Source: Eudromia elegans (taxonomy: Eukaryota; Chordata; Aves; Tinamiformes; Tinamidae). Taken from it: 64,000 nt of DNA. The position numbers were made by a program, and so were the translations under genes. The notes under the pieces are model-generated. The model saw nothing but the letters and a program-made list of their open reading frames with translations. It had not been told where the DNA came from and searched no databases. The number at the start of each line of letters is the position of its first letter. The first letter of the stretch is position 1. The stretch spans positions 6,262,786 to 6,326,785 of the forward strand of contig PTEX01000024.1 of NCBI GenBank assembly GCA_003342815.1. The letters run 5' to 3'. This document shows positions 52,656 to 53,334 of the stretch, one piece after another.

Positions 52656-53032
52656 AGAGCAGATATAGCTGTTGCCCCCCTCACCATAACCTTGGTGCGA
52701 GAAGAAGTCATAGACTTTTCAAAACCCTTTATGAGTCTGGGCATCTCCATCATGATCAAGAAGCCTCAGAAATCTAAACCTGGCGTATTTTCTTTCCTGG
52801 ATCCTTTGGCTTATGAAATTTGGATGTGTATAGTCTTTGCTTACATTGGCGTCAGCGTAGTTCTTTTCCTAGTGAGCAGATTCAGCCCCTATGAGTGGCA
52901 CTTGGAAGACAACAGTGAAGAACCGCGTGACCCTCAGAATCCTCCCGACCCTCCAAATGAGTTTGGAATATTTAACAGCCTTTGGTTTTCCCTGGGTGCC
53001 TTTATGCAGCAAGGATGCGATATTTCTCCAAG
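52656..53032 (+). CDS. GRIA3: GRIA3 exon 11: end of S1, M1, pore loop M2 with Q/R site
   Basis: This 377-base exon starts in phase 0 ([20 protein letters not shown]) and ends after two bases of an Arg codon. [11 protein letters not shown] contains the Pro, Thr and Arg that bind the alpha-amino and alpha-carboxyl groups of glutamate (GluA2 P478, T480, R485). M1 is about exon residues 55-75 ([18 protein letters not shown]). A Pro/Asp-rich cytoplasmic loop follows, then the re-entrant M2 segment about 105-122 ([19 protein letters not shown]). The Q/R-site codon at 53007-53009 is CAG, so the genomic residue is Gln, the calcium-permeable form. The donor gtttgt is weaker than at most exons here. 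The last 30 bases are complementary to the intron downstream (see the duplex entry). Confidence 0.97.
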
Positions 53033-53334
53033 GTTTGTTCCATATCACTCCATCACCTTTTTGCATTTTATGGTCATATTCTGATGCCATGGTGCATATA
53101 CGTTACACTGTCAAATTTTAATTTAATTCCATTTTTTTGACATTCCATTTAATGCTAAGCTTCATCATCAAGCCATTATGCTTGCTAATACTTGCCTCCA
53201 ATATGAGTGGCATTGCCTTAAAATGCCTTTTATGCATTTCTGCAAAACTTATATACACCATGTTGAGGCTGTAAAATGCATAGGGTTTTCTGTTTTCAGC
53301 AATGCTTGGAGGGCTACCGTGTTTTTGCTGCATA
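53003..53334 (+). promoter_or_regulatory. GRIA3: Q/R-site editing-type RNA duplex: exon 11 end and intronic complementary site
   Basis: Exon bases 53003-53032 pair antiparallel with intron bases 53305-53334. Ten Watson-Crick pairs cover the Q/R codon (TATGCAGCAA against TTGCTGCATA). A G-U-rich middle follows, with mismatches only at 53020 (A-C) and 53023 (U-C). Seven Watson-Crick pairs then run up to the donor (CTCCAAG against CTTGGAG). In GRIA2 the same architecture, an exon complementary site roughly 300 nt into intron 11, directs ADAR2 editing of the Q/R adenosine, here 53008. GRIA3 is generally described as unedited there. The pairing is seen directly. Editing is inference: the duplex may be functional or a relic of the ancestral gene. 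Confidence 0.75.
53064..53100 (+). repeat. Imperfect direct repeat, copy 1 (copy 2 at 53338-53367)
   Basis: cattttatggtcat ... tggtgcatata at 53064-53100 recurs as cattttacggtcat ... tggtgcatata at 53338-53367. The first block matches 13 of 14 bases and the last 11 of 11; a shorter spacer separates them in copy 2. Copy 2 begins four bases after the intronic arm of the Q/R duplex. Confidence 0.8.

Follow-up and report, generated by a model that had tools for sequence, protein, structure and literature searches.

Editing at the Q/R site sets the passage of calcium through AMPA receptors, and for mammals it is regarded as exclusive to GluA2. The textbook rule is that, among the AMPA subunits, only GluA2 is edited at this position. 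The locus considered here raises the question of whether GRIA3 of the bird Eudromia elegans departs from that rule. A preliminary description of a 64,000-nt stretch of its genome (hereafter, the window) had proposed that GRIA3 carries a GRIA2-like Q/R editing duplex, and this proposal is followed up here computationally, both within the window and across the genome.

GRIA3 exons in the window

The window, which has a G+C content of 42%, was assigned to GRIA3 on the basis of the translation of positions 52800–53040, for which the six best PDB matches were all GluA3. The GluA3 matches scored 172 bits, whereas those of GluA4, GluA1, and GluA2 scored at most 138 bits; of the 78 residues encoded by the exon and compared with 5ide_B (GluA3), 76 were identical. 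Exon 11 is bounded by an acceptor ag at 52654–52655 and a donor gt at 53033, and it encodes a genomic glutamine, as an in-frame CAG codon, at the Q/R position of the AMPA-subunit pore. Exons 10, 11, and 12 are collinear, and exon 13 lies further along the same contig (locus L009), where 81 of 81 amino acids were identical to a GluA3 stretch. No internal repeats were detected in the window at 1e-8, and a search of the whole window against Rfam at gathering thresholds gave no matches.

Table 1. Features of GRIA3 and of its predicted Q/R editing structure, in window coordinates
Feature	Position	Strand	Basis
GRIA3 exon 10, matched part	44641..44847	+	tblastn
GRIA3 exon 11, pore region, containing the Q/R glutamine	52656..53032	+	GluA3 PDB matches; splice sites
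Exon arm of the Q/R duplex	53003..53032	+	28/30 paired with 53305-53334
CAG codon of the Q/R site, with A53008 as the adenosine predicted to be edited (giving CIG, translated as Arg)	53007..53009	+	sequence, frame
EIE-like stem, 5' arm	53055..53104	+	36 predicted pairs with 53246-53286; 31/46 identical to GRIA2 over 53062-53108
Loop between EIE arms, unconserved relative to GRIA2	53109..53240	+	67/132 identical; alone 49% vs 48% shuffled
EIE-like stem, 3' arm	53246..53286	+	35/52 identical to GRIA2 over 53241-53292
Intronic editing complementary sequence (ECS)	53305..53336	+	31/32 identical to GRIA2 of the same genome; 21/25 to zebrafish gria2alpha ECS
GRIA3 exon 12	60278..60476	+	tblastn; splice sites from sequence

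A duplex between exon 11 and intron 11

Positions 53003–53032 and 53305–53334 pair through 22 Watson–Crick and six G–U pairs, with two mismatches (53020 and 53023). Ten unbroken Watson–Crick pairs (53003–53012 with 53325–53334) span the CAG codon at 53007–53009, and the partner of A53008 is position 53329, at a distance of 321 nt. The coordinates, the 28 of 30 paired positions, and the ten uninterrupted pairs over the codon given in the preliminary description were all reproduced from the sequence, and its spacing of about 320 nt between the adenosine and its complement agreed with the measured distance. Folding of positions 52980–53420 had been suggested beforehand as a check; the duplex was contained in the minimum-energy structure of this stretch, with a z-score of −3.00 and none of 100 shuffles as stable. 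When positions 53003–53334 were folded, the duplex was again part of the minimum-energy structure, the z-score was −4.13, and none of 100 shuffles was as stable.

A duplex of this kind could in principle arise from chance pairing, or from a misassembly that placed a GRIA2 intron beside a GRIA3 exon, explanations to which we give a practically negligible probability and for which no favorable evidence emerged. Chance pairing is ruled out, given that this was the only ungapped pairing of at least 27 of 30 positions in the window (+ strand, arms about 100–1000 nt apart) and that none of 5000 mononucleotide shuffles of 53133–53632 reached 28 pairs, the best reaching 24. When 1260 30-mers, one taken per 50 nt of the window, were each compared with their own next 1 kb, the best pairing averaged 20.3 positions, with a maximum of 26 and a single case of at least 25. 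Misassembly is contradicted by the location of GRIA2, which sits on a different contig with its own distinct intron, and by the flanking exons 10–13, which are GluA3-like and collinear.

The exon arm of GRIA3 had a duplex energy of −35.4 kcal/mol with its own ECS vs −39.2 kcal/mol with the ECS of GRIA2, and this somewhat weaker duplex makes partial editing of the GRIA3 Q/R site possible. In the minimum-energy fold, the duplex extends across the splice donor up to 53039/53298, giving 33 pairs, and the donor of intron 11 (53033–53039) lies inside it. This position suggests that, as has been reported for GRIA2, the folding of GRIA3 intron 11 may be in competition with its splicing.

A second stem in intron 11

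The minimum-energy fold also revealed a second long stem in intron 11, which was absent from the preliminary description. It comprises 36 pairs in two segments (53055–53078 with 53264–53286, and 53088–53104 with 53246–53262) and begins 47 nt past A53008. In mammalian GluA2, according to the part of PMC5654063 available to us, a Q/R stem of 28 bp, interrupted by two mismatched bulges, is accompanied by a 43-bp editing inducer element (EIE) located 45 nt from the site. GRIA3 compares with this layout through its 28 pairs, two mismatches, and 36-pair stem starting 47 nt on. Judged by its position in the predicted fold, the second stem is probably the counterpart of the GRIA2 EIE, and we refer to it as EIE-like.

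Two further edited intronic sites have been described in human GRIA2, 261 and 262 nt past the Q/R site (positions from a table in PMC4053846, of which a part was available). The 3' arm of the EIE-like stem in GRIA3 contains a TAAAA run with adenosines at +265 to +268, which may correspond to these sites. Two copies of a 19-nt direct repeat (84%) bracket the structure, one in the EIE 5' arm (53064–53082) and the other just past the ECS (53338–53356); the second copy is partly common to GRIA2.

Comparison with GRIA2 of the same genome

The genome comprises 944 Mb in 723 contigs and yielded at least 26 matches to beta-keratin (PF02422), in keeping with a bird. When it was searched with positions 52980–53420, four places matched: the query itself, one intron match in GRIA2, and two exon-only matches in GRIA4 and GRIA1. 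The locus with the intron match (L005) was identified as GRIA2, as the best 60 PDB sequences for its exon 10 were all GluA2. With gapped columns left aside, the introns 11 of GRIA2 and GRIA3 were identical at 31 of 32 positions in the ECS and at 31 of 46 and 35 of 52 positions in the EIE arms. Elsewhere, identity was 8/16 and 6/12 in the spacers, 67/132 in the loop, and 36/76 downstream. When the loop was realigned alone, its identity was 49%, with a shuffled mean of 48% and 16 of 40 shuffles as high. Between the two genes, similarity thus peaked opposite the Q/R codon, fell to an intermediate level in the EIE stem, and disappeared in the loop. This order points to selection, unlike that expected of a neutral relic or of a recent copy of the whole tract, and the element common to GRIA2 and GRIA3 has likely been under long selection. 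A relic free of selection fits poorly because the loop has diverged to background, whereas the stems have not. The GRIA2-like character claimed for the duplex is borne out by the near-identical ECS and by the presence of an EIE-like stem.

A recent transfer of the element from GRIA2 into GRIA3, by gene conversion or copying and with no long period of selection, would also leave an ECS that is nearly identical in the two genes. However, a recent tract would be uniform, whereas the loop inside that stretch is no more alike than background and the spacers and downstream sequence are only about half identical, and we consider this scenario very unlikely. A conversion confined to a short ECS tract is possible. 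The conserved fold might otherwise serve a non-recoding role, such as pacing the splicing of intron 11 or docking ADAR, with little editing at the Q/R site. The predicted helix covers the donor at 53033, up to 53039, and unedited GRIA2 transcripts have been reported to splice poorly (in the available part of PMC4018279). Nevertheless, conservation with GRIA2 peaks exactly opposite the Q/R codon, where the ten perfect pairs are centered, and a splicing role would not require such a peak. On balance, such a role seems unlikely.

The GRIA2 intron, folded without its exon, formed a matching stem of 40 pairs. When the 36 EIE pairs of GRIA3 were traced in GRIA2, 25 were the same, four had changed on one side, none on both sides, six were broken, and one was unmapped; in the opposite direction, the corresponding numbers for the 40 pairs of GRIA2 were 25, five, one, nine, and zero. 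For the Q/R stem, the ECS was too alike to vary, and the GRIA2 exon arm opposite it reads N. Conservation of the stem is clear, and compensatory change, with two-sided changes in 0 of 36 and 1 of 40 pairs, adds little separate support.

Overall, GRIA3 resembles the GRIA2 Q/R substrate in its exon and codon position, its near-identical ECS, its similar spacing, and its EIE-like stem at the matching place, the homology being based on alignment within one genome. Its duplex differs by one additional mismatch, and its EIE-like stem has 36 rather than 40 pairs. GRIA3, unlike GRIA2, is not known as a Q/R-edited subunit, and its editing is predicted here.

GRIA1 and GRIA4 as paralog controls

The two loci with exon-only matches served as controls. 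The first was assigned to GRIA4 (L006), with its best eight PDB matches being GluA4 or an unnamed glutamate receptor (272 bits vs 245 for GluA2), and the second to GRIA1 (L007; 255 bits vs 248 for GluA2). When the first approximately 400 nt of the four AMPA-subunit introns were compared in all six pairs, only GRIA2 and GRIA3 were similar (score 100 vs a null maximum of 34); the other five pairs scored inside their own nulls, and the paralog introns were otherwise saturated.

No GRIA2-style ECS was found in GRIA1 or GRIA4 in a search beginning 100 nt beyond the exon: the best pairing with the exon arm was 20/30 in each gene within 600 nt, and 22/30 and 21/30, respectively, within 3 kb. The best identity to the GRIA3 ECS was 20/32 in GRIA1 and 19/32 in GRIA4. 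The best duplex energies to 3 kb were −28.8 kcal/mol for GRIA1, −20.1 kcal/mol for GRIA4, and −36.2 kcal/mol for GRIA3, in a scan that left out N-bearing stretches and scored 1252, 1360, and 1450 stretches, respectively. The GRIA1 pairing lies 2978 nt beyond the exon and, as a single distant and moderately stable pairing, is taken as chance. The Q/R codon of GRIA4 is CAA rather than CAG; its edited form would still read as Arg, and no nearby ECS was found.

These comparisons also bear on whether an ancestral duplex has been kept but lies idle, with GRIA3 unedited and the element decaying. Its two mismatches, the lower stability of its duplex compared with pairing to the GRIA2 ECS, and the EIE pairs left unpaired in the other gene (6 of 35 mapped pairs of GRIA3 in GRIA2, and 9 of 40 pairs of GRIA2 in GRIA3) could be read as signs of decay. 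However, given that the loop is saturated, an ECS free of selection would be expected to lie below 31/32, and the introns of GRIA1 and GRIA4 have no trace of the element. We give this idea only a very slim chance.

ADAR genes and assembly quality

Matches to the adenosine-deaminase domain were found at five places in the genome (C547, C246, C328, C104, and C301). An ADAR2-like gene is present: C328 contains deaminase exons, one of which is identical to human ADAR2 at 55 of 63 amino acids (counted from the alignment), and from its sequence C328 looks like ADAR2. The homologous exon in C104 belongs to a more distant ADAR2 relative, which we take to be possibly ADAR3.

Isolated N were common in parts of the assembly, with 31 to 33 per 9.9 kb in L005 and L007 and 21 in 5 kb of L011, and they also occurred in L006 and L012–L018. 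They were rare near the window, with one in 64 kb (window position 18700) and none in L008–L010. The isolated N are perhaps masked heterozygous sites, and the N-poor region is perhaps a run of homozygosity.

Related elements and editing sites in other species

The zebrafish gria2alpha ECS, known from the morpholino sequence in the accessible portion of PMC4018279, had its best match in the window exactly at the GRIA3 ECS (21/25; runner-up 17), and the core of the mouse Gria2 ECS (in the excerpt of PMC7045468) recurred letter for letter at 53324–53334. Pattern searches for relatives in viral and prokaryote contigs yielded six and 47 stretches, respectively, none of which was confirmed.

Among 59 editing sites conserved in mammals, GRIA3 is listed only for the R/G site and one intron site (PMC4053846, as far as its available part extends). 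Judging from this list, the GRIA3 Q/R site is, in mammals at least, not among the conserved targets of editing. In zebrafish, gria3a and gria3b are listed as edited genes, the site being unstated in the available part of PMC8096273, and the edited sites of gria3a are, by their residue names, not Q-to-R (PMC4670233, likewise available in part). The literature searched for GRIA3, GluA3, or GluR3 with editing, which consisted mostly of abstracts and listings, held no report of GRIA3 Q/R editing, nor was it mentioned in the available parts of PMC8659423, PMC8192503, and PMC2831006.

The Q/R substrates of GRIK1 and GRIK2 are alike in that a pore Q/R codon pairs with a downstream intron; unlike GRIA3, they belong to kainate receptors, and they are likened here by description, not by sequence. 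Their intronic partner is more distant than that in GRIA3 and GRIA2. Q/R editing of GRIK2 is also helped by EIE stems (PMC5654063, available in part). The R/G hairpin of GRIA3, formed by exon 13 and its intron, is an exon–intron duplex of the ADAR-substrate kind in the same gene, but it is short and local, involves another exon, and is edited in mammals (per the part of PMC4053846 available). This hairpin is intact at positions 885–961 of L009 (−37.4 kcal/mol; z-score −7.35; none of 200 shuffles as stable) and makes a natural positive control for the editing of this gene.

Proposed mechanism and implications

From the order of similarity, the ten perfect pairs over the CAG codon, and the presence of an ADAR2-like gene, we estimate a probability of roughly 80% that GRIA3 is edited at the Q/R site by ADAR2 in the lineage of E. 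elegans, through a substrate of the GRIA2 type. The proposed element would date back to a shared ancestor of the two genes and would have been maintained by selection in this lineage. Before intron 11 is removed, exon 11 would fold back onto the ECS about 320 nt downstream, and the adjoining EIE-like stem would recruit ADAR2. A53008 would then be deaminated, yielding a GluA3 whose pore contains arginine and which has low calcium permeability. The editing step, the extent to which it occurs, and its consequence for the channel are extrapolated from GRIA2, and the GRIA2 and GRIA3 elements presumably share a common origin. Active editing and an ancestral duplex, which the preliminary description had set out as alternatives, both fit the data and are mutually compatible. 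We somewhat favor the view that the Q/R element predates the split of GRIA2 and GRIA3, that birds, and perhaps many non-mammalian vertebrates, edit both GluA2 and GluA3, and that the GluA2-only rule reflects a loss in mammals.

If GRIA3 is indeed edited in this way, the lack of GluA2 would not have to make a receptor calcium-permeable in these animals, and the practice of inferring calcium-permeable receptors from GluA2 expression in birds would change. The GRIA3 element would also serve as a further, independent example in nature of the best-known recoding signal, showing which bases of the ECS and EIE matter, and it would help to date the origin of the element.
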